In this document: one piece after another, positions 420 to 64,000 of the stretch
How positions within the stretch are numbered: the first letter of the stretch is position 1
Layout: every line of letters begins with the position of its first letter
Origin: Sipunculus nudus
Lineage: Eukaryota; Annelida; Sipuncula; Golfingiida; Sipunculidae
Length of the DNA stretch: 64,000 nucleotides
Direction of reading: 5' to 3'
Assembly (NCBI GenBank): GCA_026874595.1
Contig: CM049310.1
Location: forward strand, 2,976,001 to 3,040,000
Position numbers and translations under genes: made by a program
Notes under the pieces: generated by a model
The model's input: the letters and a program-made list of their open reading frames with translations, nothing else
What the model was told of the DNA's origin: nothing
The model's database searches: none

Positions 420-1352
420 CTGTGGTACCTTCACACTAAATGTGGTGCCAATAGTATCCCCAGACAATTAACCCCCCCCGCCCCCTCCCCCCAGCCTCGA
501 AGAATAGGATCCCATCTTGAATTCAGATGCAGAGACTGACACTTGGCAAGCCACCATGGTTTCATATAAGTATGGGCATATTTAAGGTAAAGGTCACTCT
601 CATAGGAGAGGTCATGATCCAAAGATGCATCAAACTTGTGGGTTTTGTGACTGTACCTCAAATTTTTACATAGTTATTGCATTAACATCATTTTAACAAG
701 AAAACAACACAAGGTAGCGCCACCAGTCTTCTGCAAAAGACAAAGCTATCAAAGATCTTCGGTCAAGTTGATGTTTGGATCATTCCATGTATCCCTTACT
801 GAGATATTCAAGATTTTGTATGAATTTCACCAAATATGGGAATATTCAAGGTCAAGGCCACTCTCATAGGAATGGTCATGGCCCCAATTTAAATAAACAT
901 CATCCCATAACCCATATCTATGTATATGCATAATATAAAAGAAATCTGTCCATTAGTTTTTGACTTATAATGCTCACAGTACTGCCAAGTGGCAATTTTG
1001 GGGGTATTAAAAGGCAAGAAAACAAGTAAAGAATAGTAGGTGGTGCCACCAGTTTCTGGAACATGACAACCCTATCCATGATCTTCGATCAACTTGATTT
1101 TTGGATCAATCCATGCAAGATTTCTTGAGATATTTAAGAATTTGTGTGATTTTCCCCAAAATTGGACCTATTCAAGGTCAAGGACACTCCTAGGAAAGGT
1201 CATGACCTCATTTTAGATAGGCGTCGTCCTTTCACCCATATCTATACATATACCCTGTTTGGTAAAGATCTGTGAAATATTTATATGCGGCAGCGGCGGC
1301 GGTGGCGGGACCGTCATGAAAACATAAAACTTTGTCTGGGGATACAATAATG
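420..1352 (+). mobile_element. T3 element, copy 1
   Basis: AGTATCCCCAGACAATTAA near 450 is the inverted counterpart of TTGTCTGGGGATACAATAA at about 1331-1350. The interior holds two core units with GGTAGCGCCACCAG and GGTGGTGCCACCAG, each followed by AAGATCTTCGGTCA-type sequence. A GC-rich run GCGGCAGCGGCGGCGG precedes the 3' end. The build matches the copy at 34.7-36.4 kb. The exact 5' border is unclear. Confidence 0.65.
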
Positions 1353-2480
1353 GTTTAATGGGTAAATTATTTGATAATGCTTCATTGAAGTTGGACATGC
1401 TAAACATTTTCTTCTCTTTATGCACTGCCCATGGGGTAAAAGTACCTTTAAAAGCCTGGGAAAAATGTTCCTACCAGTAAAGAAAACAGGTTTGCAGGAA
1501 CCCTGGACTTGTCCCCAGTTAATGTGTTGTCAAAAACAGATACTGATGACGATATGATAAATCATATTTTCTGTATTTATGTAAATGGGATCTGGTCATA
1601 TTATAGGATTTTAAATGTTTGATTGATCCTGTAATTCATTCATCCAATATATTTATCATTAAATTCATTATCATTTAACACATTGCAAATATGATTTCAG
1701 CTTCTAGAATTTCACCCAATTCTGTAAAATTTACACATAAAACAAACAGCTAAATAAATGGAATAAGATAAAAGTTAACTGATGATTTCAGCATACATAA
1801 AAAAAGGGAAATGGAGAAGATTAATTATACTAGTTGGTTCTAAGGTAAAGATGTGTATCTTTTCAACAGTTTACAGTCAGTCTGCAGGGAACACTTAACT
1901 AATATTCACCTATTGGCCAACGTGGAACTCAAAATGACTGGGATTACTTGAATTTTGATGAAACAATGGGACAATGAGACAAACGGAAAACTGGAATACT
2001 GTAAGCAGTGCTTTCAGGAACTTCGGGTAAGTATCAGAGATGTTCAGAACCTCTTACGGATGCTTGGTTTTGAGGGTCCAAGCGTCTGATGGGACGCGTA
2101 AATTTCTGGCTTTAGCAGCCTGTAGCAGTCACTGACCTTTACCAGCTACTTAAGTGAAATTGTCAGCTGTGTAAACATTGCGCTGATAACTGAGGCTTAC
2201 ATTTTGAAATAAGCAAATATTCATATAATGACACAATTTCTTATCATTTAATATGATAATTAAATAAAATATGGAAAAGATTCTATTTTACTTTAAACCC
2301 TTCAAAATATCATCTCCCCTTGGGACACTCTAAACTCAGATCTCCCCAAAATTTTTTAATGAGGGTCACGGACTCTTCAAATTTTTCTTCCTATTGAAAG
2401 CCCTGTGTAAGCCAATCCCTAATTATCAAAAACAATCAAGTACACTTTGTGTTTACAATATATAAAGGACATAAACTTAC
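1353..2480. other. No feature recognised
   Basis: AT-rich sequence without convincing exons. The next MEGF8-like exon was looked for on the minus strand and not found. I see no repeat family member here. Confidence 0.5.
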
Positions 2481-8700: not shown

Positions 8701-11700
8701 AAAGAGCTGCGAGATCTATAGATACACATGCAAAATTTCAGGTCAATACATCTTACCAGTCATGAGATATTAGCCACCAGTTTTGCCTATGATAAAGAGC
8801 TGCGAGATCTATAGATACACATGCAAAATTTCAGGTCAATACATCTTACCAGTCATGAGATATTAGCCACCAGTTTTGCCTATGATAAAGAGCTGAGATC
8901 TACATACATGCAAAATTTCAGGTCAATACATCTTACCAGTCATGAGATGTTAGCATGGACGTCTACAGCTTAACCGTAAATGTAGGTGGCACTACTTGCC
9001 ATAAAATCGAGAAAGCTATCCAGGATGTATACACATGCAAAAATTTAGTGTACAAAGACTTACAGATGCAGAAAGGAAAAGTCAAGGGTCAACGCAAAAT
9101 TGTTAGGCACCAGTTCACGGGCCGCGATAATGGGGTCAAGTTTTGTAAAAATCAGACGAGTGGTCTCAGAGGAGTTCTTCAGACAAGAACACAGCGGCCA
9201 TGGAGACTGGGATGGGAGCAGCAGAACCCAGTCAAAACATAGTATCTGCAAAACTTTGTTTTGGTGGATACAATAACTGAAATTAAACAGATACCTTACT
9301 TTCTTTGAAATTCCTATAGAAAGATTAAATGCATATGACAAAACAGTTTGTGTTTGCCAGTATATAAGCCATAAAACAACATCATTAGTCTGTTTGCAGA
9401 ACACACAATGTCAGCGTGTCTACTAGGTTGGGAACTTTATTTACAGAGTCTCTGATATGCAACTCAACACCATTCAGAATATATGACTCAATTACAGCAT
9501 TTTCAAAGGACGCCAATCTTCACACTGTACTTGTTTATAAATTTAATTTTCTAGGCTAAATTAATGTGTAAGAAAACTTTGGGGTGTTGGAACAGAGTAC
9601 AGATATTCTAGAAAATATACGACATATATTGTATCACATATTTTATCTTGAGTGAAGTATGGAGATATGTTACAGGAAGTACAAGGGCAATACACCTGGA
9701 AGGACTGAGCACATTTAAGCAGGACTTCCGATTACCTTATCAGGATAGTTGAGATTCATTGGGCTTCGGTAGCGGACTGACTGGACACCAGCTCCTTGGT
9801 TTTCTGTGCGACATTTGTCAAACTCTGTCAGCTTCAGGCTCACTTTTCCCCACCACGGCTCTTTACCAGATGATGATGTGGTGTCAGGGCTGCACCAGCC
9901 TTTTGGATCTGAAATATCATCAAATCACGCTAAAAATATCTGCTCAAAATGGTAAAACCCTCAAAATAATTACTGACAAAAGCCTTATCTGGAAATTATG
10001 TACACAGTTATGATGAAATTCAGGGGCTGATTTTCTTTACTAATTTGCATGGTGAAAGGAATAAATGTGGGAATGATGCATATTCCTTTGTCTTATAAAA
10101 CAGACATAAACTGTTGTAAAACGAGGCCTACAGGCCTAATGCGAACCTGTGCAATTGGATGTACACCAGGTATAATGCGTCAATGCTGGACGGTTACTTT
10201 TCAAGTACATCTGTAACATGTACATGAACAATGCAAGTACTATACATTTTTAAGAAGGACCAATTACACAAACATCACAGCTGAAATGCTGGCACGGGTG
10301 CACACAAAACAAAAAAATGATGGTAAGTGGTGACACCAGTTTTGTGAACAAGAAAGCCAAAGCCATCACAGCTGCATGGACAAAGGCCTCCTAAGAATCA
10401 TTTTTGTGCAATGATACAGAAGCTGAAACAACAGTTTTGCAGAAGAAGACTACTGCAGTCCTCAGTTTGAAATAGGCTTACTAAAATTATGAGGTTTTTG
10501 TCCATGAAATAACAGTTTGATTTAGGTGGCACCACAAAAAAAGCAATTCCAAATATGAGTCATGTGACAAACATTTGCACAAAACTTGGTGATGCTAGCT
10601 CCTGTCGTTTCTGAGATTGTTAAGTCAGTATGCTTACTTGGCCAAATGACTAAGTTCAAATTCCTGTAACTTGGCCAAATTTCATCAAAACCAAACCATT
10701 TGAACAAACTTGAAAGAGCTTATCTCTGGAATTATTTTTGTGAAATATTGAACAATTTCACTGAATGATTTCAGAGAAGAATATTTTCAAAGGTTCTTTT
10801 AGCTTTCCCCCGTAAAATAAAAGTTAAATCAGGTGGCACCACAAAGCGCTCCATCCCACAACATTTGATATGTGACAAATTTTTGCATAAAATTGGGGGT
10901 GCTAGCTCCTGCTATTTCTGAGAAATTATGGGTAAATATATTGATGCCCATTACCCCTAGTACAGAAAAGGATGATGCAGGTGATGCCACCAATACTTAA
11001 AATTCATATTTGAGTCATGTGACCAATATTTGCATAAAATTTGGTGAAGATAGCTCCAGCCGTTTCTGATATTGTAATTTTTGTAACCTTTTTTGGCCAA
11101 ATAACTAAGTCAAGCTTCCTGTAACTCGGCCAATATTCACCAAACAGGAACCATTCGAACAAACCTGAGAGACTGGACAATTTCAGAGAAGAAGATTTTT
11201 AAAAGTTTTTTTAGCCTTTTCCTTATAAAATCTAAGTAAATGCAGATATCAGATATAAGCAAAATCGGATAGAGTTTTTTAATGACTGATCTTTTGCAAA
11301 AAAACTGTTGATGCTAGCTCAAATGATTTTTGGGATACCATGGGTAAGGTACAGACAGCGCTGCACTTTTCACTGATCATTTGCAAATAATTTGGTGATG
11401 CTAGCTCCAACGGTTTTTGGGATATCATGGGTTAACTACAGACAAAGCTGCCCCATCGCATAAGCTTACAATTTCACTAAAAATTCAGCAATCCAACTCG
11501 GAGCTAACCCTCTCACCAAATAAAATCAATGCAGTTAAGCATGTGGATACAGTTTGTGCTACTTTACTTTTATCTGACTACCCTGAAAACTAACAGATGA
11601 CAATGGGGGGAGATGATGGCCGCTGAGCAATAACTTTAAAGTGATGTAATATAATCACTTACCACTCCTGGGTTGGCAGTTGTTGGCTTTTACACACCAT

Positions 11701-27741: not shown

Positions 27742-27917
27742 AACAAGGCCTACAGGCCTAATGCGAACCTGTGCAAAGTTTAGGAGTATAAATTGAGGTT
27801 TATTTTTTAAATTTAATGTTGTTCCTCTTAAGTCCTACATATCTACCTTAGTCATTATGATATCAGCAAAATGGATGTTTCCAACCTGCAAGTTTCAGAC
27901 TAGGACATTTTAAAACC

Positions 27918-29640
27918 AGAATATGGGTAGTGGACAAGCGACTATGTTTATCTGCAGAAATCAGAGTGGGACGGGTGAAGTGAGGCATGGATTAAGTGAC
28001 AAGGGGAAGAGTGAGGTGTGTTGCATATTAGAATGGATGTCTGCAGCTTGAACGGGAATGTAGGTGGTGCCACCTGTCATAAAATTGAGAAAATTGTCCA
28101 GGATGTATAAACCTGCAAAATTTCAGGTGGATAAGTCAAACCACTGCTGAGATATGAGTGATTTTATCCCAAGGCAGATGAACAGATGGACGCTGTGTAA
28201 AAGTGGTTGCAGGTGGCTCCACAAGTTTTGCCTATGATGAAGAGCTATGTGAGATCTATACACAAGCAAAATCTTGGCCCAATCGGTCAAACTGTTCAAG
28301 AGCTTTGATGTCTGCAGAGTAAATGTGAATGTAGGTGGCTCCACCTGTCATAAAATCAAGAAAGCTGTCAAGGATGTATAAACCTGCAAAATTTCAGGTC
28401 AATAAGTCAAACCACTTCTGAGATATGAGTGATTTTATCCAAAGGCAGATGAGCACATGGTTGCTGTGCATAAGTGGTTGCAGGTGGTGCCACCAGTTTT
28501 GCCTATGATGAAGAGCTCTGTGAGATCTATACACAAGCAAAATTTTGGCCCAATCGGTCAAACGGTTCCCGAGATATGAGCTTGGATGTCTGCAGAGTAA
28601 ACCTGAATATAGGTGGTGCCACCTGTCATAAAATCAAGAGAGCTCTCAAGGATGTATAAACCTGCAAAATTTCAGGAGGAAAAGGCAAACGACTGCAGAG
28701 ATAAGAGTGGATTTATCCCAAGGAAAGTGAACAGATGGACGATGTGCATAAATGGCTGCAGGTGGAGCCACCAGTTTTGCCTATGATGAAGAGTTATGTG
28801 AGATCTATACACATGCAAAATTTTGGCCCAATCGGTCAAACGGTTCCCAAGATATGAGCTTGGATGTCTGCAGAGTAAACCTGAATGTAGGTGGCGCCAC
28901 CTGTCATAAAATCGAGAAAGCTGTCGAGGATGCATAAACCTGCAAAATGTCAGGTGGATAAGTCAAACCACTTCTGAGATATGAGTGATTTTATCCAAAG
29001 GCAGATGAACAGATGGACGCTGTGTAAAAGTGGTTGCAGGTGGCCCCACATGTTTTGCATATGATGAAGAGCTATGTGAAATCTATACACATGCAAAATC
29101 TTGGCCCAATCGGTCAAACGATTCCCGAGATATGAGCTTGGATGACTGCAGAGTATATGTGAATGTAGATGGCGCCACCTGTCATAAAATCTAGAAAGCT
29201 GTCAAGGATGTAAAAACCTGCAAAGTTTCAGGTGGAAAAGTCAAACCACTGCTGAGATATGAGTGATATTACCTCAAGGCAGATGAACAGATGGAGGCTG
29301 TGCAAAAATGGTTGCAGGTGGCGCCACCATTTTTAGTGTATGTTATAAAGCTATCAAAGGGCTACATTTGTGCAAAACTTTTAGCCTGATTGGTCAAACG
29401 GTTCCCGAGATGTGTGGGTTTATGTGTGGAAACAGACGCACAAATAGACGCTGGCCAACCAGGAAAGGTCAGAGGTCAACCAAAAATGAGGGCGCAGCAG
29501 TTCACATGTGACCGGTCATAATTCTGAATTTTAAAAATTTCTGCCCAGTGGTAATCGAGGAGTTCTCCGGAAACCTATGGGGTGATGGCGTCTGACTGAA
29601 AACATAGTATCCGCAAAACTCTGTCTTGTAAATGAGAATA
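27918..29640 (+). mobile_element. T4 element, copy b, nested in T2 copy b
   Basis: It starts AGAATATGGGTAGTGGACAA and ends near CATAGTATCCGCAAAACTCT. Within are alternating core units: GGTGGCGCCACCTGTCATAA and GGTGGTGCCACCAGTTTTGC types, each with TGCAAAAT blocks and GAGATATGAG. Short ORFs on both strands are read-through of these units. Confidence 0.7.
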
Positions 29641-29781
29641 CCATCAAAGACGCATAGACAGGTCAAAATATTAGTCCAAAACATCAAACTTCCCCAGAGT
29701 TTGATGCACTGGGCTGACAAGGCTTAGGTGAGTAAGGCACTTGCCCCCGAGTGACCTGTGACAAATTGCTGCCTAAAGCTA

Positions 29782-30030
29782 CTGCACTGAGTGATCTCTT
29801 GACCTGCACCTGGCTAGACTGAGTGAACTTCTGACCTGTACCTGGCTGAACTGAGTGAAATCTTGACCTGTTGCATAATCTGACACAGTTGGCAGTCTGC
29901 CAAAGCTATAAATAGATTCAGGCTGAACTTTGGTGCCAAATATGATGCAGTGAGCAGTCTGCCAAAGCTATAAATAGAATGCAGCTACTGCACTGAGTGA
30001 ACTCCAGACCTATACCTGGCTGCACTTCTT
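29782..30030 (+). repeat. Short degenerate tandem repeats within T2 copy b
   Basis: ACTGAGTGA followed by (A/C)TCTTGACCTG(C/T)ACCTGGCT recurs at about 29785, 29820, 29856 and 29993, a period near 36 bp at first and then broken. It is shared in part with 58858-58885. Confidence 0.6.
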
Positions 30031-31785
30031 CCAATCCTGGCACTGTGCCAAAACTATTTATAGAGCTAACATCATCTTGGCTAATGGCCAACATCAAGGT
30101 TCTGGCAATCTGCCAATGGTAAACCAAGTGCTGCCATCTGTACACAAAAGTGGTCCCTACTTGCAATAACTTAGAAATTTATTTTCCCAATACAAAATGC
30201 TTTTTAGCGGACTTTTTATAAAAAAGAAATCAAGAATATATGTAAAATTAATACGGATGCATACTGAATGCAAAATTAAAATACAGATATATCTCATTGA
30301 TGGAAAATTCTTGAATTAAGTTGAGTAGGGATACCAATAATTTATAATCCACGTAGTTGTCTTATATAGCCACAGAGAGCTGAATATCCATGATTGTTAC
30401 ATTGCCTGGTATGATGAATAACTTAAATCATAAGTCTAAATTTTTTAAAAGCTTTTAAAAAAAATTTCTTGTCAATATTAACCAAAGATAACCTGAAATC
30501 TAAATGTCTAGTGGCATGATGTAATAGATGCTGATAAACCGGTGCCAGGCTAGATGTAACAGCATAACACAGCTAACATATATGGTAAAAGACTCAATTC
30601 AATCTCAATAATTCAGCCAAAAATCATTCATGTGGAACCATTAAAGACAATCATTATAAGAATTATTGTAGGGATTATTCTTGTAATATATTTAACAAAC
30701 TGGCTTCAGTGGCATAAGTTGAAAAAGTTTCGCAGGTTTATAACTCATATAGGAAGATAGAGCAAACTGGCTAAGTTCCGCTTCCCGTAACTCAGCCAAA
30801 ATGCTCTGAACCAAAACCATTTGAAAAAACTTGAATTATCATCAGCTGAGGATAATTAATGTGTGAGATTTAAGAATTTGGCCCAGTGGTTTTTGAGAAG
30901 AAGATCTTTGTTGCCACTGAGCTAAAATGGGCTGTTATGGCATAAGGCTAAATTCAGCTTCCCATAACTTAGCCAAAAGTCACTGAAAAGAGACCATTTG
31001 AACAAACTTCAGAAAGCACTACCCTTGGTTCATTTCTGTGCGATATTATACATTTTGGCCATATGGTTTCAGAGAAGAAGTTTTTTGTAGCCTTTAGTGT
31101 GATACAGGTGACCCCATACAAAAAAGGCCGATGCAGGTGGCGCCACCAATACCTCAATTTCAGATATGACCCATGTGACCAACATTGGCATAAAATTTGG
31201 TGATGATAGCTCCAGCTGTTTCTGAGATTTAAATTTTAATATGCTTTTTTGCATAGTTAACAAAGTTCAACCTCCTGTAACTCGGCCAAAAATCTCTGAA
31301 CTGGAACCATTCGAACAAACTTGAGAAAGATTGTTCCAGGGATCATTTCTTTGAAATATTGAACAATTTGGCTGGACAGTTTTTAAAAGAAGATTTTTAA
31401 AACTTTTTCAGCTTTATCCCTATAAAATCTATGAAAATGCAGTTAGAAAAAAAAATAAACAAAATCCGATATAGTTTTTTGGATGTCTGATTATTTGCAA
31501 AAACTTAGGTGATGCTAGCTCCTGCCGTTTTTGAGATAGCTATGGTTAACGTACAGATGACACACGATGCACGACATACGAAGCACGACACACGACGGAC
31601 AACGCCGCACCATCGCATAAGCTCACAGGTTCACTAAAAATTAAATGCTTGGTGTCAAAATTAACAAGGATGGTATCTATGAAACCAACCTTTTATTTTT
31701 TTGGCTAAAAGATCATTAAATTTATTTTTATGTCTGGTTGTCAAATTTGCGCTATTCGAAAAATGGAAAAATATCGCGAAACTGA

Positions 31786-34404: not shown

Positions 34405-34682
34405 TAAAACCTTCATGAATAAGGTTCCCAAACAAAACACATGAAGATTTGTTTTTTTGTAACCTCATAGACATCTCATATACATTAACTATGTTTGAGG
34501 CACAATCAACTTTTGATATTATTAATGTTACAAGATTGTTTATGCTATCCATAATGTATAGATTGATATTATGAGTAATATGAGATCTTTTACATTATCT
34601 GCCAATAATGAACAGGAATTTTTATACTTATTTGAAGTCCCCTGGGTCCTTTGCAATTTGAAAAGAATTTGCCGACATATAA

Positions 34683-36436
34683 AACTAGACATTTCTTGGC
34701 ACTGCAGGTGCCAGAGTATCCCCAGACATAGTAGGCCCCCCCCCCCCCCCCCTTTAAGAATAAACCCCCATTTTTAGCAGCGTATACTGACACTTGGCAA
34801 GCAATTATTGTTTCTTCCATCTATCAATCCATAATCTTTTTGAAGATGTTGGTCCTGTGACCTTGATCTTTTTAAAGATGTGTCCTGTGACCTTGACCTT
34901 TGACCTCATGACCCCAAAATCAATTCGGGTCTTGCTTTTCCAATGGGACATATACAAGTCAAGTTTGAAATCCATACATTAATAAAAGCAGGAATTATCA
35001 TCCAGAAACTAATTTTTGGACAGATGGCTCCTGTGACCTTCACCTTTGACCTTGCGACCTCAAAATTGATAGGGGTCTTCCACTCTTGGCAGGTGAACTA
35101 TATGTGCAAGATGAAAGATCTGAGATGAATTGTTTGGCTCAAAATGCATCCACAATCTTTTTAAAGATGTGTTCTGTGACCTTGACCTTTGACCCCAAAA
35201 TCAATTAGGGTCTTGCTTTTCCAATGGGTCATATACAAGTCAAGTTTGAAATCCATACATCAATAAAAGCAGCAATTATCATCCAGAAACTAATTTTTTG
35301 ACAGATGGCTCCTGTGACCTTCACCTTTGACCTTGTGACCTCAAATTTGATAGGAGTCTTCCTCTATTGGCAGATGAACTATATGTGCAAGATGAAAGGT
35401 CTGAGATGAAATGTTTGGCTGAAAATGCATCCACAATCTTTTTAAAGATGTGTCCTGTGACCTTGACCTTTGACCTCATGACCCCAAAATCAATTGGAGT
35501 CTTGCTTTTCCCATGGGTAATATACAAGTCAAGTTTGAAATCAATCCATCAATAAAAGCAGGAATTATCATCCAGAAACTAATTTTTGGACAGATAGCTC
35601 CTGTGGCCTTGACCTTTGACCTTGTGACCCCAAAATTGATAGGGGTCTTCCTCTATTGGCAGATGATCTATATGTGCAAGATAAAAGACCTGGGATGAAA
35701 GTTTGGCTTAAAATGTATCCACAGTATCTTTTACATAGGAGTCCAGTGACCTTGAACTTTGACCTCATGACCCTAAAACCTATAGTGTTCTTTCTTTAGT
35801 GGTGGGCCATACATAAGTCACGTTTGAAATCCATATGGCTATCAACACTGGAGATATCATAAGAGGTGTGTGATTTTCACCAAATATGGACACATTTAAG
35901 GTCAAGGCCACTCTCATGGTAAAGGTCATGACCCAAATGTAAACAGACCTCATCCCATAACCCATCTCTATACATGTGCATAATATGAAAGAAATCTGTC
36001 CATTAGTTTTTGACTTATAATGGCTACAGTACTGTCAAGTGGCAATTATGGGGGTATTAAAAGGCGTATAAACAAGAAAAGGATAATAGGTGGCGCCACC
36101 AGTTTCCGGTATATCACAAGGCTATCCAAGATCTTTGGTCACCTTGATTTTTGGACCAGTCCATGCAAGCTTCCTTGAGATATTTAAGAATTTGTGTTAT
36201 TTTCAGCAAAAATGGACCTATTCAAGGTCAAGGTCATTCTCCTAGCATAGGTCATGACCCCATTTTAAATAGGCTTGGTCCCCTTACCTATTTCTATACA
36301 AATGTAAAGTTTGAAAAAGATCAGTGAAATATTTTTTGAGTTATCCCGCTCACAAGGTTTTTCTGCGGTGGCGGCAGTGGCGGCGGGACCGTCGTAAAAC
36401 CATATAGTATCCCGACTTTGTCTGGGGATACAATAA
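34683..36436 (+). mobile_element. T3 element, copy 2
   Basis: It starts AACTAGACATTTCTTGGCAC with hairpin GGCACtgcaGGTGCC and AGTATCCCCAGACA, and ends TTTGTCTGGGGATACAATAA, the inverted partner. It contains a C-tract (34737-34752), four ~286-bp units, a perfect GGTGGCGCCACC (36092-36103) and a GC-rich GCGGTGGCGGCAGTGG run near the 3' end. Confidence 0.75.
34880..35775 (+). repeat. ~286-bp tandem units with TGACCTTTGACC motifs
   Basis: Units begin near AAAGATGTGTCCTGTGACCT. TGACCTTGACCTTTGACC-type runs start at 34888, 35177, 35458 and, degraded, 35747. A second set within each unit reads GACCTT(C/G)ACCTTTGACCTT (about 35037, 35317, 35605). Confidence 0.8.
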
Positions 36437-38640
36437 TTCATTCAGTAAAAGATATACTTTGTGTAGTTTACTGTCTGGTGAGATTGCAAACTTATGAACC
36501 CTCGCAAAACACTGAAAAATGGAAATCGCAAAGTTATAACAGCGCGAACATGAAGCCAACCACAGTATCATATTGTGAAAGAGGAATTGTGACATTTGTT
36601 CAAAAAGAAAAATAATACACCAGCAACAGAGTAGGACAAAACCCTGAACTACATCACTATTGATGTATAAGGTCTTACAATGAATTATATAACCTATTTA
36701 CTGATTCTTTACTTGATATAATATTCAACCGAGGACAGACCCGTTACATGTTTATACAACTAATTATGACACAGCAGAGCTATTGGCATCCCTACATTAA
36801 GTGTGGATTATTGACTGGCCACGTGCTGGTGAAGGCTGTAACTGACTTGACCCGGCTGACACAGCAGCAGACAGAACATCATTTCCATCATGGAGTATTG
36901 AACATGGAATGAATAACATTCATCATAACATTTGCTCCGGGAAACAGTGGTCCAAGCATGAATCATGAGAATATTATTCTACACAAGAAGGATTTTTAAT
37001 ATACTTCAAACATATTAAACTGATCACTTCCTCAGAGGAGAGGAGGCTTTGATAGCAAACAGGAAGAACTAGATCAATGCTGAGAAGGGAACATACTCCC
37101 ACTATGGCATAGCAATCCTACTGTATCTATCCTTTTGTCCAAATCCTCAAAAAAATTAAGGCTCTTTTTGCCCATATTCCATCAAATTTAAGAGATTACA
37201 GTATTCATATGAAACACTGCTGACATACAAACAGATAAAGGTGAATGGCAAAAATCCACTATCAGAGCTTTTAGGGAAGAGTTTAAACTCATATAGCACA
37301 TGTCCAAAGGGAATTATTTAAATCATTTTGTTTACATTCATTTTTAACAAATATTCTACTGTTGCAGTTTAATAATAATATGTAGTTTTAAATATCTGAA
37401 GGACTGCTTAGGTCTATATTTACAATTTCTGAAATTTTGGTCAATGATAATAATTTTTATTAATACTGGATCATAAATATCAAAAAATATTTAACTTAGA
37501 TATGCAAATTTCCCTTTTACAAAATTTGTGACAATATTTGTTTTAACCAATTTAAAGAATGTGCACAGCATCCCCATGGCAGATACATCAATGCTAAAAA
37601 TCCTCATTTTTTTTCATAATGAACCAAACACTAGTACAATATATACATGTTGTTTATATATGTATGAATAAAAGACAGGAAAAACACAAAGCAAGCTATA
37701 AAGATACAGCTGCAGCTGCCAGTTAAAAACCACAATTTGATAAGGGAACTCCACCGGAGACCTCTGATCCTAATTGGTCTTCCTCTGCAGTACCAAACAG
37801 ACACCAAACATAGTAACCTTAATCCGCAGGGCTTTCGACGTCATCTCATGGAATAAGGACCGCTGGAGGATCTCATTGATTTACTACGGCAATCAAAGCA
37901 AGAAGGACACTCTACGGACCTGCTGTAACCAAGTGCTTGCTGGATAAATATTTCGAGAGTTAATACTGACCCAAGTACTTGTATCAATATTTCAAGTGTC
38001 TATAGACTTGGCTGGCTTTTGGACTTCAGTAAACTGCTCCATGTCGGTCTGACCTTGTAACTAACTAGCTGGAGAAATTGCCAGAGATCAGCTTAAGCAC
38101 AAACCTATTTGCGAGTTACATGAGATAGGTCTTGACATTTCAGTAAAGTAGGACGCACCCAGAGGATGAGGAGAAACTAAATATGACTCATCCTTACAGT
38201 ACATCCACTGGTTTCAAAACGAATTTTGTTAGTTATTATTTGTTTACAACAAATTAAAAGGTACAGTTTGGATAACTGAATTGGTAATACCTGTTCCAGT
38301 AATGAACGTTTATTTAATCCTGTAAAGTTTTAATTTCATGCATTACACTGATACAGTTGTAAAAAAAGGTCAGCTTTAGTCTTTGTCAATTCACTGCATA
38401 TCAATGAATATACAGAAATTAAACCAAGGAAATTTCTGTCTTTTTTAATTTAGTATAACCACAATGGTTTAGAAAAAGTTTATAAAACAATTTCAAATAA
38501 TCCAAACAGATTGACTAAACATGATCTTAAAGTATATCTTTGTTAACATGTTTGGGGAAAAATGAGAATCTCGAAAATCCAGAATTTTCCTTGGAAGAAT
38601 GTGATTTCTTGTTCCTCTAAGCAAAAATAAACAATATGTA
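36437..38640. other. 2.2 kb without a recognised repeat or gene
   Basis: Mostly AT-rich. The segment 37740-38180 is less AT-rich and shows no match to the window's repeat families. It could be an untranslated exon or a conserved non-coding stretch, but no open frame or splice pair supports that. Confidence 0.4.
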
Positions 38641-41600: not shown

Positions 41601-43110
41601 AATGATTCCTGTTCTTCTCAGGATAAAAATTAAAATCCTGAGATGGTATGAAATGATTCCTGTTCTTCTCAGGATAAAAATTAAAATCACGAGATGGTAT
41701 GAAATGATTTCTGTTCTTCCCAGGATAAAAATTAAAATCCTGAGATGGCATGAAATGATTCCTGTTCTTCCCAGGATAAAAATTAAAATCACAAGATGGT
41801 ATGAAATGATTCCTGTTCTTCCCAGGATAAAAATTAAAATCACGAGATGGCATGAAATGATTCCTGTTCTTCTCAGGATAAAAATTAAAATCATGAGATG
41901 GTATGAAATGATTCCTGTTCTTCCCAGGATAAAAATTAAAATCACAAGATGGTATGAAATGATTCCTGTTCTTCTCAGGATAAAAATTAAAATCATGAGA
42001 TAGTAAGAAATGATTCCTGTTCTTCTCAGGATAAAAATTAAAAACACGAGATGGTATGAAATGATTCCTGTTCTTCTCAGGATAAAAATTAAAATCATGA
42101 GATGGTATGAAATGATTCCTGTTCTTCTAAGGTTAAAAATTAAAATCATGAGATAGTATGAAATGATTCCTGTTCTTCTCAGGATAAAAATTAAAAACAC
42201 GAGATGGTATGAAATGATTCCTGTTCTTCTCAGGATAAAAATTAAAATCATGAGATGGTATGAAATGATTCCTGTTCTTCTAAGGATAAAAATTAAAATC
42301 ATGAGATGGTATGAAATGATTCCTGTTCTTCTCAGGATAAAAATTAAAATCATGAGATAGTATGAAATGATTCCTGTTCTTCTCAGGATAAAAATTAAAA
42401 TCACGAGATGGTATGAAATGATTCCTGTTCTTCTCAGGATAAAAATTAAAATCCTGAGATGGCATGAAATGATTCCTGTTCATCTCAGGATAAAAATTAA
42501 AATCCTGAGATGGTATGAAATGATTCCTGTTCTTCTCAGGATAAAAATTAAAATCACGAGATGGTATGAAATGATTCCTGTTCTTCTCAGGATAAAAATT
42601 AAAATCCTGAGATAGTATGAAATGATTCCTGTTCTTCTCAGGATAAAAATTAAAATCACGAGATGGTATGAAATGATTCCTGTTCTTCTCAGGATAAAAA
42701 TTAAAATCCTGAGATGGTATGAAATGATTCCTGTTCTTCTCAGGATAAAAATTAAAATCACGAGATGGTATGAAATGATTTCTGTTCTTCTAAGGATAAA
42801 AATTAAAATCACAAGATGGTATGAAATGATTCCTGTTCTTCCCAGGATAAAAATTAAAATCACAAGATGGAATGAAATGATTCCTGTTCTTCTCAGGATA
42901 AAAATTAAAATCATGAGATGGTATGAAATGATTCCTGTTCTTCTCAGGATAAAAATTAAAATCACAAGATGGTATGAAATGATTCCTGTTCTTCCCAGGA
43001 TAAAAATTAAAATCACAAGATGGTATGAAATGATTCCTGTTCTTCTCAGGATAAAAATTAAAATCACAAGATGGTATGAAATGATTCCTGTTCTTATCAG
43101 GATAAAAATT
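38641..43110 (+). repeat. 51-bp minisatellite, ~88 copies
   Basis: The unit reads ATGATTCCTGTTCTTCTCAG then GATAAAAATTAAAATCACAA then GATGGTATGAA. The array spans about 4470 bp, close to 88 units. Variant sites are few: CACGAG/CACAAG/CATGAG/CCTGAG, TTCTCAGG/TTCCCAGG/TTCCGAGG/TTCTAAGG, and ATGGTATG/ATAGTATG. Because 51 is a multiple of three and the unit lacks stops in several frames, long spurious ORFs occur on both strands. The right edge coincides with the start of T1 copy B. Confidence 0.95.
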
Positions 43111-45337
43111 ACAAGTGACCCAGGGGTCATGACGCTCAGCTGACCAGGAAGACATTGACAAAAGTAATTTTATCATCTGAATGTCAAATTTGAATAAATA
43201 CTTTTTCCAAACTTGACCTTTTGTATAAAATCATCCAATATTCATTGGGGTACTATGGAGCTCTGTAGCATGAAGGATATGGGTAACAGACACCTATTTT
43301 CAAGGTTTACAAGATGACTTTTCAGGGGTCTCCCAGCATGTCAAAAAATAAAATTCTAGGTCCAGTTATTATGATTTGTGCCCTGTTAACAGATGACCAA
43401 ATGTTTATTCTGGGGGGTATTTCAAAGCCGCATAGGATGAAGGATATGGGTAACAGAGATGTAATTTCAGGTGCACAAGGAGACATTTCAGGGGCCTCCC
43501 AGCATATCAAGAAAGGAGATTCTAGGTCAAGTCATTATAATTTGTGCTCTGTTAACAGATGACCAAATCTTTATTCTCGGAGCCATAGCATGAAGGATAT
43601 GGGTAACAGAGACCTAATTTCAGATTTCCAAAGAGACTTTCCAAAGGCCTCCCTGCATGTCAAGAAAGAAGATTCTAGGTCCAGTCATTATGATTTGTGC
43701 CCTGTTAATATATGACCAAATCTTTATTCTGGGGGTACTTCAGAGCCCCATAGCTCACAGAATATGGGTAACAGGGACCTTATTTCGGGTTTCCATGTAG
43801 ACCTTTTATGGGCTTCCCTGGAGGTGAGGACAGAAGATTCTAGGTCCAGTCATTATGATTTGTGCCCTGTTTACAGATGACCAAATGTTTAAAGATCACA
43901 AAAGTAGAGAAAAAAAATCGTAAAAAATAAAAAAAATATAGCTGGCGCCACCAGTCTCCAGAAATTGATGAAACACTCCATGATCAATATCCATGCAAAG
44001 AATCATGGTGATTAATGCTTTAGTTGTTCAGATACTTGAGCTTTTGTATTAAATTTTGCATTATTCTGGGGGGTACTTCAGAACCCCATAGCTCGAAGAA
44101 TATAGGTCACAGTGACCTAATTTCAGGTTTACAAGGAGAATTTCCATAGACCTCCCAGGATGTCAAGTAAGAAGATTCCAGGTCTAGCGGTTACGATTTG
44201 TGCCCTGTTAACAGACAGACGCCTGGATGGCCGGACGGACGACGGACAAAAGGTGATCCCTATAGCTCAGATGACTTTCAGTCAGCTGAGCTAAAAATTG
44301 AAAAAATACAGGTGGCGCCACCAGAATGCAGAAACTGATGAAACATTTCATGATCAATATCCATGCAAAGAATCATGGTGATCAATATAATAATTGTTCA
44401 GATACTTGAGCTTTTGTATCAAATTTTCCATTATTCTGGGGGGTACTTCGGAGCCCCATAGCTCAGAGGTTATGGGTAACAGAGACCTAATTTCAAGTTT
44501 TTAAGGAGACTTTTCATGGGTCTCTCAGCATGTCAAGAGAGAAGATTCTAGGTCCAGTTGTTACGATTTGTGCCATGTTAACAGATGACCGCATCTTATG
44601 AGGTCTCAAAAATAGAGAAAAAATTCGTAAAAATAAAAAAAAAACAGGTGGCGCCACCATACTGCAGAAACTGATGACACATTTCATGATCAGTATCCAT
44701 GCAAAGAATCATGGTGATCACTGCAATAGTTGTTTAGATACTTGAGCTTTTGTAACAAATTTTCCATTATTCTGGGGAGTACTTCGGAGCCCCATAGCTC
44801 AAAGGTTATGGGTAACAGAGACCTAATTTCAGGTTTCCAAAGAGACTTTTTATGGGCCTCCCTGCATGTCAAGAGAGAAGATTCTAGGTGTAGTCGTTAC
44901 GATTTGTGCCCTGTTAACAGATGGCCGCATCTTAAGAGGTCTCAAAAATAGAGAAAAATATTGGTAAAAATCGAAAAAATACAGGTGGCGCCACCAGTCT
45001 GCAGAAACTGATGAAACACTCCACGATCAATATCCATGCAAAAAATCATGATGATCAATGCATTAGTTGTTCAGATACTTGAGCTTTTGTATCAAATTTT
45101 CCATTATTCTGGGGGGTACTTCAGAACCCCATAGCTCGAAGAATATAGGTCACAGTGACCTAATTTCAGGTTTACAAGGAGAATTTCCATAGACCTCCCA
45201 GGATGTCAAGTAAGAATATTCCAGTTCTAGCGGTTACGATTTGTGCCCTGTTAACGGACAGACGCCGGGACGGCCGGACGGACGACAGACAAAAGGTGAT
45301 CCCTATAGCTCAGATGACTTACAGTCAGCTGAGCTAA
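43110..45337 (+). mobile_element. T1 element, copy B, with two 3' termini
   Basis: It starts ACAAGTGACCCAGGGGTCA then GACGCTCAGCTGACC. A complete 3' end with microsatellite and hairpin occurs at about 44210-44297 and another at 45255-45337. Cores start at 43941, 44311, 44647 and 44984 with the same unit as copy A. No coding capacity. Confidence 0.8.
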
Positions 45338-45880
45338 AAAGCTGAGTCATACAACGTTATCGTGTTCACAAGAAATGACACAGACAACAGACCAAACATT
45401 TTATGCCCCCCCCCCCAATGGCAGGGAACACATAAATATGTGAATAAAATATGAAAAATACAACTCCAAATAGTATAATGTCAAATTTCTTAATTTTCTT
45501 TCAGTTTTTTGGTACCAGCATTTTATTAATAAATTTAAGAACAGGTTCTATGTGTGTGCTGTGTAAGTACATGATGTATATGAATGCAAGAAAAGATAAT
45601 TGTGTGTCACAGTTAAACAATCCAATAATTTCCTTACAGGTGAGCTCTGCCCAACAGAACAAAGGACGCCCCTGACATCCCCGAATGACTCTGACCCTCA
45701 GTTGGATTATTATTTAAAATGCCCATCTCATAATGGTAAATCCTTCATACAAAAACATAACATGGTGAACTTACATCCCACCAAAAATTAAATTTTACAG
45801 ATTGTTTCTCTGTGTTACCCTATACCTCCACAAAATATCATCAAAATCTATTCTTAACTTTTTGAGTAAATATGCAAACA
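45338..45880. other. Spacer with a C-tract, no supported gene
   Basis: Contains a 9-C tract at about 45407. An exon-like segment at 45640-45738 is discussed under rejected items. Confidence 0.4.
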
Positions 45881-54405: not shown

Positions 54406-57021
54406 AAGATAGAGAAAGAAAGAGAAAAAGCAGAGGAGAGAGAGAGAGAGAGAGAGAAAGAGAGACCTAGACTGCCAGAGAGAGAGAAAGAGAGGCTCTC
54501 TGGTAATTACTGCCTGACCCAGCCTGACCCAGACACAGTGGCAGTAGGTCAGACCTGAAGGTGTTATGTAACTGCCCAGTACACTGCATTTATACTGATC
54601 TGATGTAAACAATGAAGACATGGTACCTTGAAACTTGAATAAAATCTACAGTTTTTGATCAATTGGTTTCAAATTTTAGATTTTAACAGATGAAATGTTA
54701 ATGTGTACATGCTGTGAAAATTAAATCCACAGCACTAACAGGAAAAATTTGAATATTTATATTTTTTTAAATGGTATCAGGAAAAAAAGAAAAGTATTCT
54801 CAGCTATAAAACTAATACATGTGTTAAAATTAATCCAAGGATCAAAACACCCAATATATCATACCAGGAGCAAACTGGAGTTGGGAATGTTTAATTTTAT
54901 GAACTGAAATAAAGGACGAGTAATACAAATTTTGATTATTTAGCCAGTATCATGTAACAACTGATACAACCATGAGTTATAAGTCAAACAAATTAAAATC
55001 TTTAATGAGCACTTGTCTGAGTAATATTTTAAATTTTTGACATATTTATTTATTATTTTAATTTGGTAATAGATATAAACCAACAAGTTAAACACCTGGA
55101 AAAGACCTGGAAATTTAGATTAATTTAATATAATCAACTGCATCCTTGTCTATCATTATCTTGCTTCATATAATCCCTAATAGTAAACAACAATTTATTT
55201 TAATTATTTATTTTTCATTTTTATGGTTGAAATGAAAAATACCCAATGGTGACTGCATGGTGTCATTTGAAATACAATTTTGGCCATCCATGGAAGATCC
55301 ATAAATGATCAGTAATTGCAAGGTAATCCCCTGTAACTCATTAACTATAAATTCCTTTCCATTTATTTTTTTAAGTTCTTATCATAAACCAAGAATTAAA
55401 AAAAAGTTTATTGTTATGTTTATGGCCTAAACAAATACTAGTGGAGGGGGTTGGACAGTTAGATCCAGTTGAAGCCACCCAAGAGCTGGCTGGCTGCAGA
55501 GTGCCTCGCTTCAAGCATGCATAATTGGCCTGAAAGGTCAATGTGGGGACATAAAAGAGGGGCTTCAGTACAGCCAAGGTGTGATATGGTCTCATAAAAA
55601 CTTTCATAAAAGCTAGTTTTTGACCAATTCCTTTTAAAACTTCAGAATTTAGAAGCTAAAATCCTTACGTGTGCAAGATATGAAAATTAAATCAACAGTG
55701 CTTACAGGGAAAAAACATGCCATGGCCAAAGTTGGGCAAAATTTAAGGTACTGATTTTATATTTATGCTAATAACTTATAAAATTTGAAAAATTCAGAAC
55801 TAATTTTCAGAATACAATTGAATCTTGATTAAATAATGTTATATCCCTGGCAAAAAATGTCTACCTTCAGCAATTTTCATGTTAAGAGAGTAAATATATT
55901 TCTTGATTTTTTACAAAGTGCATTATGTTTAGGCCTAGAACTTAAAACAATTACACAATACTGACATCATTTCTGGCATATGCATAGCGAATGTATAGAA
56001 AAATATGTATATTATATATGATCAAAGTCAGATCAGTGGTTTTGATATTAGGCAGTCTTAAAGTGTAACAATGCGGTTCTAATGGAAAAATGAAGATTTT
56101 TCTTAATATCTCGAAGGAATGCAGTCCTAGTGACCAAACTTTTAGTATGGTAGAGGATTTGGGGGACATCTCACTGTATGCAAAATTTAAGGAACTTAGA
56201 GCTGAAGCTGGGGAGCTGAGCTCTAGTGAACTGCATAACACTAGCTTGATGTAAACAATATGTGACATGGTGCTTGAAAACTTGAATAAAAGCTACAGTT
56301 TTTGATCAACTGGTTTCAATTTTTTTGTTTTAACAGTTGAAATGGTAACAAAAACATGCTTTGAAAATTAAATCCACAGCAGTTACAGGAAAAAAACGTG
56401 CCATGGTCAAACTTGGGCAAAATTTAAGGTACCAATTTTATATTTTTGCCAATATTTAAAAAAATTTAACAGATTTTGATCTAATTTTTGGTATACAATT
56501 AAATTTTGATTATTTAAAGTAGTATTACTGAAAAAAAATTCCTACCTTTAACACTTTTGGTCTTAAGAGACAAAATATCTTTCCTCATTTTTTTACAAAG
56601 TCCACTATGTTTGGGCCCATAACTTTTTTAAATTAAATAATACTGACTTAATTTCTGGCATGTACATAGGAACCATATAGAGAAATATTTATGGTAAAAA
56701 TGAAGAAAACCAGATGAGTGGTTTTGATATTAGGCAGTCCTGAAGTGTGAAAATAGATTTCTTATAAAAAATTGAGGTTTTTCCTTAATATCTCGAAGGA
56801 ACGAAGTCATATTGACCCAATTTTTGGCATGGTAGGAGATTTTGGGGCCATCTAACTGTATGCCGAATTTCAGATTGGTAGGTCCAATGGTGTCGAAACG
56901 TGCCAGTCTTACATCAGACATCCAGACGGACAGACGGGCGGACGGACAGACAGACAGACGGACGGACAACGGACAATGGACCACGACTATAGCTCAGATG
57001 ACTTTTAGTCAGCTGAGCTAA
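53009..57021 (+). mobile_element. T1 element, copy F, nested in T2 copy c
   Basis: It starts AACAAGGGACCCATGGGTCA with CGGCGCTCACCTGA and ends AGCTCAGATGACTTTTAG and TCAGCTGAGCTAA. The 5' 500 bp match copy D and the 3' 1.4 kb match copies D, E and G. Repeated blocks with GTGCCATGGTCAAA or GCCATGGCCAAA occur near 55710 and 56398. ACGG/ACAG microsatellite is at 56925-56970. Confidence 0.8.
54355..54500 (+). repeat. (GA)n tract
   Basis: A nearly pure AG run followed by degenerate GAAAG repeats inside T1 copy F. The RERERE and LSLSLS frames are artefacts. Confidence 0.95.
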
Positions 57022-57023
57022 CT

Positions 57024-58795
57024 AGAATACGAGTAGTCAACAAGGGACTATGTGTATCCGCCAAAATCAGAGTGGGACGGGTGAAGTGAGGCATGGATTG
57101 AGTGGCAAGGGGAAATAGAGTGAGGTGTGTTGCATAATAGCCTGGATGTCTGCAGCTAAAATGTGTATGTAGGTTGCGCCACCTATCACAAAATCCAGAG
57201 AGCTGTCCAAGTTGTATACATATGCAAAATTTAAGGCAGATAATTCAAGCCACTACTTGTTTATGAGTGATTTTATCCCACACCAGACAAACAGAAGGAC
57301 GCTGTGCAAAAATGGTGGCAGGGTGCCACATATTTTGTGTATGATTAAGAGCTATGTGAGAAATATGCACATGCAAAATTTCAGTGGGATATGTCAAACC
57401 AGTCCTGAGATATAAGCCTGAATGTCAGCAGTGTATACATAAATGTAGGTGGCGCTACCTGCAACAAAATCAAGAAAGCTATCCAAGATGTATAAACCTG
57501 CAAAAATTTAGGCAGATATGCCAAACCACTGCTGAGGTATTAGTGATTTTATCCCACGGCAAACAAACAGACACACGCTGTGCAAAAATGGTTGCAGGTG
57601 GCGCCACCAGTTTTGCATATGATAAAAAGCTATGTGAGATCTATAAACATGCAAAATTTTTGCCTAATCCTCAAATGGTTCCTGAGATATGAGTTTGGAT
57701 GTCTGCAGCATAAATGTGAATATAGGTGGCGTCACCTGTCATAAAATCAAGAAAGCTGTCAAGGATGTACAAACCTGCAAAATTTCAGGTGGATAAGTCA
57801 AACTACTGTAGAGATATGAGTAATTTTATCCCAAGGCAGATGAACAAATGGACGCTGTGCAAAAATGGTTGCAGGTGGCGCCACCAGTTTTGTGTATGAT
57901 GAAATGTAGGTGGCACCACCTGCCACAAAATCAAGAAAGCTATCCAAGATGTATAAACCTGCAAAATCTTAGGCAGATATGTCAAACCACTGCCGAGATA
58001 TAAGTGATTTTATACCATGGCAAACAAACAGATGGACGCTGTGCAAAAATGGTTGCAGGTGGCGCCACAGTTTTGCGTATGATAAAGAGCTATGTTAGAT
58101 CCATAAACATGCAAAATTTTTGCCCAATCGGTCAAATGGTTCCTGAGATATGAGCTTGGATGTCTGCAGCATAAATGTGAATGTAGGTGGAGCCAACTGT
58201 CATAAAATCAAGAAAGCTGTCAAGGATGTATAAACCTGCGAAATTTCAGCTGGATAAGTCAAACCACTGCTGAGATATGAGTAATTTTATCCATGGCAGA
58301 TGAACAAATGGACGCTGTGCAAAAATGGTTGCAGGTGGCGCCACCTTTTTTGCGTATGATAAGGAGCTATGGGAGTTCACACATGCAAAATTTTGGCCCA
58401 ACTGGTCAAACGATTCCTGAGATATGAGCTTGGATGTCTGCAGCTTAAACGTGAATGTAGGAGGTGCCACCTGTCATTAAATCAAGAAAGCTGTCCAGGA
58501 TGTATACACATGCAAAATTTCAGGTGGACAAGTCCAACCAATGCAGAGATAGGAGTGAGTTTATCCCAAGGCAGATGAACAGATGGACGCTGTGCAAAAA
58601 TGGTTGCAGGTGGCGCTACCTTTTTAGTGTATGTTATAAAGCTATCCAAGGGGTACATTTGTACAAAATTTTTAGCCTGATTGGTCAAACGGTTCCCGAG
58701 ATATGTGGGTTATTGTTTGGAAACAGATGCAAAAATGGACCCTCGGCAGAGAGGAAAGGTCAGAAGTCAACCAAAAATGAGGGAGCAGGGGCTGA
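57024..58795 (+). mobile_element. T4 element, copy c, 3' truncated
   Basis: It starts AGAATACGAGTAGTCAACAA and TGTATCCGCCAAAATCAGAG. At least eight core units follow with GGTGGCGCCACC or one-base variants, for example at about 57597, 57877 and 58337. The expected GGTGGATACAAT end is missing: sequence passes from AAAAATGAGGGAGCAG straight into T2. Confidence 0.7.
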
Positions 58796-60620
58796 ACTTT
58801 GGTGCCAAACCTGATGCAGTGAGCAGTCTGCCAAAGCTATAAACAGAATGCAGCTAATGCACTGAGTGAACTCTTGACCTATACAATCCAGGCACTGTGC
58901 CAAAACAAAGCTGACATCATCTTGGCTAATGGCCAACATCAAGGCACTGGCAATCTGCCAATGGTAAACCAAAAATCATTCATGTGGAACCATTAATGAC
59001 AATTATAATAAGAATTATTGCAGGGATTATTCTTGAAAAATATTTAACAAACTGGCTTCAGTGGCATCAGTCAAAAAACGTTTCGCAGGTTTAAAACTCA
59101 TATAGGAAGATACAGCAAACTGGCTAAGTTCAGCTTCCCGTAACTCAGCCAAAAAGCACTGAACCAAAACCACTTGAACAAACTGGAATTATCAACATCT
59201 GAGGATAATGAATGTGTGAGATTTAAGAAATTGGCCTAGTGGTTTTTGAGAAGAAGATCTTTGTAGCCACTGAACTAAAATGGGCTGTTATGGCATATGA
59301 CAAATTCAGCTTCCCATAACTTAGCCAAATGTCACTGAACAGAGACCATTTGAACAAACTTCAGAAAGCACTACCCTAGGATCATTTCTGTGCGATATAT
59401 AACATTTTGGCCATATGGTTTCAGAGAAGAAGTTTTTTGTAGCCCTCAGTGTGATACAGGCACTGATGACCCGATGCAAAAGAAACCGATGCAGGTGGGG
59501 CCACCAATACCTCAATTTCAGATATGACCTATGTGACCAACATTGGCATAAAATTTGGTGATGATAGCTCCAGCTGTTTCTGAGATTTAAATTTTAATAT
59601 GCTTTTTTGGACAGATGACAAAGTTCAACCTCCTGTAACTCGGCCAAAAATCTCCAAACTGGAACCATTCGAACAAACTTGAGAGAGAATGTTTCAGGGA
59701 TCATTTCTGTGAAATATAGGACAATTTGGCTGGACAGTTTCGGAGAAGAAGAATTTTAAAGCTTTTTTAGCTTTTTCCCTATAAAATCTAAGAAAATGCA
59801 GTAAGAAAAAAAAATAAACAAAATCCAATATAGTTTTTTGGATGACTGATTATTTGCAAAAATTTTTGTGATGCTAGCTCCTGCCATTTTTGAAATAGCT
59901 ATGGTTAACGTACAGACGACGTACAACGTACAACGCACGACGCACGACACACGACGTACGACGCCGCACCATCGCATAAGCTCAAAAAGTGATGTCGCAC
60001 AAGTTCGCTAAAAAACTTCTGCATGTAATATCATGCACAATGAAGGTCAAAAAGGACAATTATTGGCGATGCCATTCCATGTCATACATCGGCTCAGCTG
60101 TCAAAGGTATTTGCGCATGGTGTCTGACTTAATCGGGGTATTGACGTCCCGTATTATATTTTTTCATCTTTCAAATAAATACTGTTTTACAAACCTTTAT
60201 AAGAAAATTTTATATATTCTGCTACCTTATTAGGCGGCGACTTTTATTAAAGAGTTAATTTATAACCATCCTTATTTTTTCCTCTTTACCAGCAAAGGAA
60301 ATCTCAAACTGCAGTCATTCATACAATTCTCTCAAACAACAAAAAATAAAAATCATCTGCAAATCAGTATCACTTGGATTAGTTATTATTTTTCAAAACT
60401 TTACAAAACCGCTAAAAGATCGTTGGTCTTTCTTAATTGTCCTGAATGTGCTGTGAAGTCAAACATGTGTACACAAGCCGCAGGGTTTAATTAGAGGATT
60501 GTAATGCACTTTGGAAGTTGGCAGATGTGGGCTGGGGGAGGGGGGCTTATTAGGATATAAATATTTGAAAAACTTTTAATTTTTATGAGCGCCAAGGGGC
60601 TTATTATGTCGAATACGGTA

Positions 60621-62640: not shown

Positions 62641-63410
62641 AAAGCTGCATTATGGAACAGCAAATAACAAGTTGAGATACATATCATCTACCTGAAGATG
62701 GATATATAAATTATAAAAACAATTAACAAGGACGGTCCTTGCCTATTTATTCTGATTAACAACATCCCATGAAAAAATATGAAGCGATTTTTTAAAACAA
62801 CTGGTAGACAAATTCAGCTTGTTCTATACTTGGTTCAGAAATATTTTTCATCGAACAGACACAGTTTCAGCACTGCTGGTAAAACATACAAGTGTCTGAG
62901 GAGTGGAGCTACTTCATAAATCACTAGTTTTGTTTTGTTGCAAGACCCCACTAACAATCAACCATAAAATCAGTCGTAAAACAATAATAAATCCCTCTGG
63001 GAGCAATAGATTTTCATCAGCATGCTACAGAGACGATCAAGATTATGTAGTCCAGTCATGTATCATAATAAGCAGTGACGCAATTTGTTATGGGGATAAA
63101 AAAAAGTCCTTCAGTATCCTGTGCTCCGCAGGGGACAAACACTGATGAGCATTTCATTAGCTGAACTCTTTGACGGTTCCATCCATGGATTCCTCCAGAA
63201 AGTCTGCCTGAATGGTACCTTCCTCTCATTATTAAAGTATACACACAGGCCTCACAGGAAAACCTCTGTTCTACTAGATATGTCCTGTGCATCCAGGATA
63301 TAGGACTCAATAATACAACAAGTATAATTTATCATGACTGAAACAATTCATACAATATATTGTGGTCTAAATTCATTGTGAAAGCCGGGGAGAAATTTGT
63401 AATTAATCAA
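62641..63410. other. No feature recognised
   Basis: AT-rich sequence. Short frames on both strands (62903-63310) show no recognisable domain or splice structure. Confidence 0.4.
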
Positions 63411-64000
63411 AACTAGATATTTCTTGGCACCACAGGTGCAATAGTATCGCCAGACAATTAATTCCCCCTTTAAGAATAATTCCCCCCATCTTCAGTAGCA
63501 TATACTGACACTTGGAAAGTGACTATGGAACATCTATCAACTTGAGAAACAATATTCTTCATCAAATATGGGGGCCAATACAAAAACCACTCTTATGAAA
63601 AGGGGATAAATTTTTACTAGAAAAATGGTAAGGTAGGTGGCGCCACCTGTCTGGTTGAGATGAAAACTCTCCAAGATGGATTTACATGCCAAATTGGAGA
63701 CCAACACATTGAAGGACACCTCAGATATGAGCAATTTTCATCTAAAACAAATGTACAGATGGATAACACATAAATAAATGGCAGATGGCGCCACCATTCT
63801 TTCATACAAGATGGAGGAGGCCAAGATCTATGGTTAACGCACAGTTTGAGACCAATACAGCACACCACTCAGGCCAATAGGCCAAATCACTCCTAAGTAA
63901 AGGGCATTGATTTATTCTACAAAAACGAGGAGGTAGGTGGCGCCACCTGTTTGGTTTACAAGAAAACTTTCAAAGATGGATGGACATACCAAATTCCATT
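63411..64000 (+). mobile_element. T3 element, copy 3, 5' end, runs off the window
   Basis: It starts AACTAGATATTTCTTGGCAC with hairpin GGCACcacaGGTGC and AGTATCGCCAGACAATTAA. Three core units follow with GGTGGCGCCACC or GATGGCGCCACC at about 63636, 63785 and 63936, a period near 150 bp. Confidence 0.75.

Follow-up and report, generated by a model that had tools for sequence, protein, structure and literature searches.

We found that the palindrome-led module in the 64,000-nt stretch of DNA analyzed here (the window) is very probably (roughly 85%) one homologous satellite-like repeat. It is about 150 bp long in its simplest form and occurs in the central arrays of several HINE-type families. 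With the same confidence, its units can be placed in the central, satellite-like arrays of non-autonomous Helentrons (HINEs), which read on the minus strand. This figure covers common descent and element context, and it does not extend to constraint on the palindrome, which is weighed separately below.

Occurrence and spacing of the module

With up to two mismatches allowed, the palindrome GGTGGCGCCACC was present at 44 sites in the window (14 of them perfect), compared with a mean of 0.38 and a maximum of 3 in 100 shuffles. Spacing was scored on a hand-chosen list of 44 units, composed of 42 of these sites and two sites with three mismatches (8985 and 10326); the list omits 1301, which lies in a G-rich tract, and 63936, where the window end cuts the unit. 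The search for the other two anchors was limited to offsets of 35–65 and 70–105 nt. Filtering at no more than four mismatches in the ATGC block and two in GAGATAT left 40 of the 44 units scorable. GAGATAT started 85–90 nt past the palindrome start in 39 of these 40 units, most often at 88 nt (18 units) or 86 nt (13 units). The gap from palindrome to block was 38–41 nt in 31 units, and the block preceded GAGATAT by exactly 36 nt in 29 units and by 35–37 nt in 32.

These counts confirm the original prediction of a palindrome-led module with near-fixed spacing, and its exact 36-nt distance between block and GAGATAT applies to 29 of the scorable units and fails in the other 11. All five units cited as examples hold. 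Two had been placed correctly (31136 and 63636), and three are better placed at 5508 (instead of 5509), 28890 (instead of 28897), and 36089 (instead of 36092). In the last of these, the palindrome and GAGATAT are present, but the ATGC block is hardly recognizable.

In a comparison of family consensuses, the palindrome had a mean between-family identity of 1.00, GAGATAT one of 0.82, and the ATGC block one of 0.60, versus 0.44 for the rest of the repeat. The ATGC block is the weakest anchor, and the distance from palindrome to GAGATAT is the tighter constant. Coding constraint on the spacing was considered and rejected because this distance differs by 2 nt between families.

A literature search for GGTGGCGCCACC returned one match in main text, in a chitinase paper. 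Since figures and supplements were outside its scope, the search does not in itself make the motif unpublished.

Common descent of the units

The units can be aligned over their first 100 nt, and we used 35 of them for alignment, consensus, and fold work. For a more stringent comparison, we built leave-one-family-out profiles from 37 units, with the palindrome omitted, all T4 subfamilies removed together, and matches accepted up to an E-value of 10. The profiles recovered 34 of the 37 units with an offset error of −3 to +1 nt, and 25 of the 37 at E < 0.05. Three T1 units and three T2 units had E-values above 0.05, and T5 was recovered at 0.33 and 1.1 only, with its third unit missed (zero of three at E < 0.05). 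Ungapped identity with the three anchors masked exceeded that of shuffles in 12 out of 21 family pairs (p < 0.05). Likeness outside the anchors is thus in register across families and supports the earlier proposal of a single core repeat ancestral to all families, with the qualification that the other nine pairs, taken alone, did not exceed shuffles at that level. The anchors keep their distances because the units share an ancestral repeat and have accumulated few indels, as the alignments support.

A profile of the rest of the repeat, itself made from palindrome-bearing units, recruited 44 units, of which 40 had the palindrome with up to two mismatches. The remaining four had three or more mismatches, and two of these are the inner copies of a 93-bp triplication (Table 1); its junction lies inside the palindrome, leaving the inner copies without one. 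Matches that cover the second half of the module and lack the palindrome (∼4 to 17 bits) adjoin simple-repeat tracts in a group of elements denoted X and at the left end of T2, and also occur in a 180-bp array. This half-module might represent an ancestral form, a lead suggested by these weak matches.

No relatives of the repeat were found in pattern scans of viral and genome contigs. Two of the three patterns scanned on viral contigs had no match; the third reported two loci, and one scan of genome contigs reported 13. Neither the repeat profile (E up to 1) nor blastn against the window (E up to 1e-3) matched any of these 15 loci, and we therefore took them as chance.

Elements carrying the repeats

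The module had been assigned to four families (T1–T4). Sharing of the module is borne out, and the carriers fall more naturally into three types of element: T4 and T2, which seem to form a single element whose arrays keep one order in all three copies; T5, with T3 sharing its right end; and T1, which is separate (Table 1). We compared these elements with the HINE layout as described in the texts of PMC4067079 and PMC7492417. Using a HINE criterion of ∼11 bp or more for subterminal inverted repeats (subTIRs), we found repeats with at most one mismatch of 14 nt in T1a, 12 nt in T1b, and 17 nt in both T5a and T5b, and none of 200 shuffles was as good. In each case, the left subTIR was followed by an inverted repeat (degenerate in T5a), a simple-repeat tract, and then the central tandem repeats. 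The right-end stems were 7 bp (T1a), 6 bp (T1b), only 4 bp (T5a), and 6 bp (T5b), counts made without a shuffle comparison. The right end of T1b has TGACCCCTGGGTCA where T1a has TGACCCATGGGTCA. Many element ends abut runs of T.

The T4+T2 element is similar in layout to the T1 and T5 elements in other respects, with left end AGCTTATGCGATGG and a GTCGTGC-like tract in two of its three copies. The best end match was 7 nt in copy c, a length that 199 of 200 shuffles attained, and 8 nt in copy b (137 of 200). We refer to this element as only HINE-like because these two copies have no matching subterminal repeats. The ends of T1, T5/T3, and T4+T2 differ, and related central repeats therefore occur in elements with different ends.

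The X elements have T1-like ends, with matches of 10–12 nt in the four copies tested; between 4 and 16 of 200 shuffles did as well. No GGTGGCGCCACC site with up to two mismatches lies inside them. At 57018–57024, a T4+T2 right end meets an X left end with zero bases, or at most shared T's, between the two. The 180-bp tandem array (5888–7448) is located within the T1a element.

Each of the 13 elements delimited by eye has minus-strand orientation (two-sided p = 0.00024 assuming independence, which tandem insertion or duplication may break). Self-matches of the window were on the same strand in 620 cases and on opposite strands in two (E up to 1e-3, excluding pairs within a 51-bp array).

Table 1. 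Coordinates of the repeat module, its arrays, and the elements that carry it
Feature	Position	Strand	Details
12-bp palindrome GGTGGCGCCACC of first T3 unit	63636..63647	none	
ATGC block ATGCCAAATTG of first T3 unit	63686..63696	+	50 nt past palindrome start
GAGATAT-type anchor (CAGATAT) of first T3 unit	63722..63728	+	36 nt past block start, 86 nt past palindrome start
T3 central-repeat array	63584..64000	-	palindromes at 63636, 63784, 63936; runs past window end
T3 right end (RF)	63405..63460	-	GTCTGGCGATAC, then hairpin GCACC-TGT-GGTGC; left end beyond window
T5a element	425..1355	-	units 713, 1039; same end class as T5b
T5b element	34680..36440	-	left end GTATCCCCAGAC, inverted repeat, GCC-rich tract, palindrome unit 36089
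T5b second array	34866..35835	-	within T5b element
T5b right end	within 34680..36440	-	GTCTGGGGATAC and hairpin TGGCACCTGCAGTGCCA
T1a element	4285..7935	-	left end AGCTCAGCTGAC, inverted repeat, GTCC tract; units 4492, 4833, 5170, 5508, 7561
T1a right end	within 4285..7935	-	matching repeat and palindrome TGACCCATGGGTCA
T1b element	43100..45345	-	units 43941, 44311, 44647, 44984; second left end inside at 44265-44295
T4+T2 copy a	8379..11470	-	T4 units 8525-8985, T2 units 10525-10980
T4+T2 copy b	27912..31650	-	T4 units 28063-29317, T2 unit 31136
T4+T2 copy c	57018..60022	-	T4 units 57172-58609, T2 unit 59494; left end AGCTTATGCGATGG and GTCGTGC-like tract
93-bp tandem triplication	8681..8954	+	junction inside palindrome (TTAG/CCACC)
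Weak palindrome-less matches to second half of module	19814, 24881, 34259, 56857; 11383, 31496, 59855		adjoin simple-repeat tracts

Conservation of the palindrome

All 12 palindrome positions were identical in the seven family consensuses (one of which is a single unit and one of which represents two units), against a background identity of 44% (0.443). None of 67 other 12-column runs was as conserved in the alignment of 35 units. We then considered change within families, using 39 units from five families and excluding T3, the two-unit T4C, and the two inner triplication copies. The ten non-CpG positions of the palindrome had changed in 23 of 390 cells (5.9%), compared with 369 of 2964 cells elsewhere (12.4%; column test, p = 0.0012). 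Changes were seen in 25 of 273 cells of GAGATAT and in 21 of 78 cells of the central CpG, as expected given that CpG is mutable. The p-values are optimistic because the units share ancestry, and most units were recruited via the palindrome, which could bias its conservation. Homogenization within arrays could also account for its slow change. On balance, we lean toward the palindrome being under constraint.

A simpler reading is pure copying, in which the palindrome, the block, and GAGATAT are functionless and merely what is best preserved of an old repeat. It agrees with the within-family identities obtained when all 12 palindrome positions are counted, which show no consistent excess over positions 12–50 in the five families (.873 vs..846 in T1,.835 vs..876 in T4A,.875 vs..874 in T4B,.808 vs..708 in T2, and.889 vs..728 in T5), and with pooled gap rates that are similar within the module and beyond it (see below). 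Yet it leaves unexplained why change within families is half as frequent at the ten non-CpG positions as elsewhere, and why all 12 palindrome positions are identical across consensuses that otherwise share 44% identity. We consider pure copying a real possibility that nonetheless falls short of even odds.

Because the non-CpG positions change more slowly and the palindrome is unchanged in every consensus, active source elements probably retained it for a reason. The likeliest roles would be a dyad-symmetric site for a protein on double-stranded DNA, or a junction for the gain and loss of units. The elements themselves would be copied by rolling-circle transposition, with the Helentron protein supplied elsewhere, and their arrays may lengthen and shorten through slippage or recombination. 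In its specific form, GGTGGCGCCACC would be a selected dyad-symmetric site for a host factor or the transposition machinery, shared by unrelated Helentron families with different ends and helping their arrays to spread; we put this forward tentatively, as a rather unlikely proposal. A possible likeness of the palindrome to CTCF-type sites was also considered.

Spacing, folding, and array junctions

The near-constant anchor distances across diverged families could also indicate that the three anchors are bound or folded as one unit, such as a structure in RNA or single-stranded DNA that depends on fixed spacings of 36 and 88 nt. We counted indels in 30 units of five families. Gaps per substitution, pooled over families, were 30/1341 inside the module and 29/1704 outside, showing no depletion inside. 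T4A (0/620 inside vs. 9/334 outside) and T5 (0/62 vs. 2/98) differed in direction from T1, T4B, and T2. Two single-pair controls, the X copies (17 gaps/270 substitutions) and a T2-element flank (4/37), were above both the module and its outside; we do not read these higher rates as constraint because the pairs behind the array counts are not independent. Special avoidance of indels in the module, for which an anchor-aligned comparison had been suggested, is therefore unsupported by the pooled counts of the window units, and the spacing requires no special constraint.

A 4–5 bp palindrome hairpin was present in three of five minimum-energy single-strand DNA folds, and all five were somewhat better than shuffles (z from −0.88 to −2.29), but the folds otherwise differ. 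The consensus RNA fold of the 35 units has only three pairs (−0.66 kcal/mol) without covariation, and none of 32 changed palindrome pairs was compensated. The proposed covariation check thus yielded neither a shared fold nor compensatory change, and we rejected RNA or single-stranded structure as unsupported. In addition, T5 has hardly any trace of the block. Taken as one bound or folded unit, the three anchors make a highly improbable explanation; the part of that idea that stands is the slower change of the palindrome alone, at its ten non-CpG positions.

Another explanation is that a hairpin or breakage at the palindrome drives the gain and loss of units, so that surviving arrays retain it. 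This overlaps with our preferred explanation, a palindrome kept for a reason, of which it is one mechanism. The triplication that breaks inside the palindrome is in agreement, as are two cases described in the text of PMC5139131 for bivalves: 13 of 16 phBglII400 junctions at a 12-bp palindrome, and, in DTC84, a conserved palindrome close to the junction between repeats. On the other hand, the same text describes no such clustering at DTHS3 palindromes. Within the window, the palindrome was hit by one of three rearrangements inspected by eye; the 57874/57909 junction is ∼6 nt away from it, and the short unit at 28212 reflects a deletion elsewhere in the unit. We regard a junction role as doubtful.

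Other features of the window

Outside the elements, 10 chosen reading frames were searched against Pfam. PSI-like and attractin-type kelch-like reading frames were found at 2439–2765, 11658–11897, and 26783–27217, all on the minus strand. The PSI matches had E-values of 2.6e-7 and 0.045 (the latter below the cut-off), and the attractin-type kelch match had an E-value of 1.8e-4, also below the cut-off. A comparison with solved structures likened 2439–2765 to plexins and 26783–27217 to LZTR1, with nothing convincing for 11658–11897. Perhaps these frames belong to one gene, whose name we infer as attractin/MEGF8-like, with the elements in its introns in sense orientation.

The window also has an RNase MRP RNA gene (14177–14435, minus strand, 110.6 bits), which marks it as eukaryotic, and two further tandem arrays. 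By their ends and repeats, the elements would suggest a bivalve or related mollusc as the source. The 51-bp array (38638–43111; 87.7 copies) has long open stretches in several frames on both strands. The 37-bp array (25146–25910; 20.7 copies) has a strong bias of G over C (GC skew of 0.42 in 24001–26000).

Comparison with known systems

Among the closest known systems is Cg_HINE in the Pacific oyster, as described in the text of PMC7492417. As here, its left flank has a subTIR, an inverted repeat, and a simple-repeat tract (GTCY/GTCC in some elements), and its right flank has a subTIR and a 3′ palindrome. The center is occupied by satellite-like arrays, with oyster monomers averaging 140–180 bp; some elements have two consecutive arrays, and some repeats keep conserved segments in common while the rest has diverged. 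Two differences stand out from that text: the oyster repeat clusters are each tied to one flank pair, whereas related repeats here have different ends, and the oyster elements occur in both orientations, whereas all delimited elements here are on one strand. GGTGGCGCCACC was not found in the text of PMC7492417, excluding its figures and supplements. A later review notes that arrays of one type recur in different Helitron elements (PMC12628747), and by that account, related repeats under different ends are not new in kind.

Other families are similar by description. DINE-1/HINE elements of flies, mites, and others are described with subTIRs, an inverted repeat (in DINE-1), a simple-repeat tract, central repeats, and a 3′ stem–loop, as here, and with T-rich insertion sites (text of PMC4067079). 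Pearl-family elements of bivalves are modular and contain as many as six internal repeats of ∼160 bp, again resembling the elements of the window, and DTC84 has a conserved palindrome close to where its repeats join (as described in PMC5139131 and PMC7492417). Monomers of the BIV160/Cg170 satellite are described as keeping two conserved motifs despite divergence, as the units do here (PMC5139131). Two BIV160 primer sequences had no match in the window closer than 6/21 or 7/25 mismatches.

The feature is thus of a known kind, and constraint on the palindrome is the part worth pursuing. As we read this literature, bivalve satellite biology raises the question of why central repeats keep short motifs while the rest drifts. 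The window offers a testable example, with one type of repeat in elements with three kinds of ends and a palindrome whose change can be measured against that of its neighbors.
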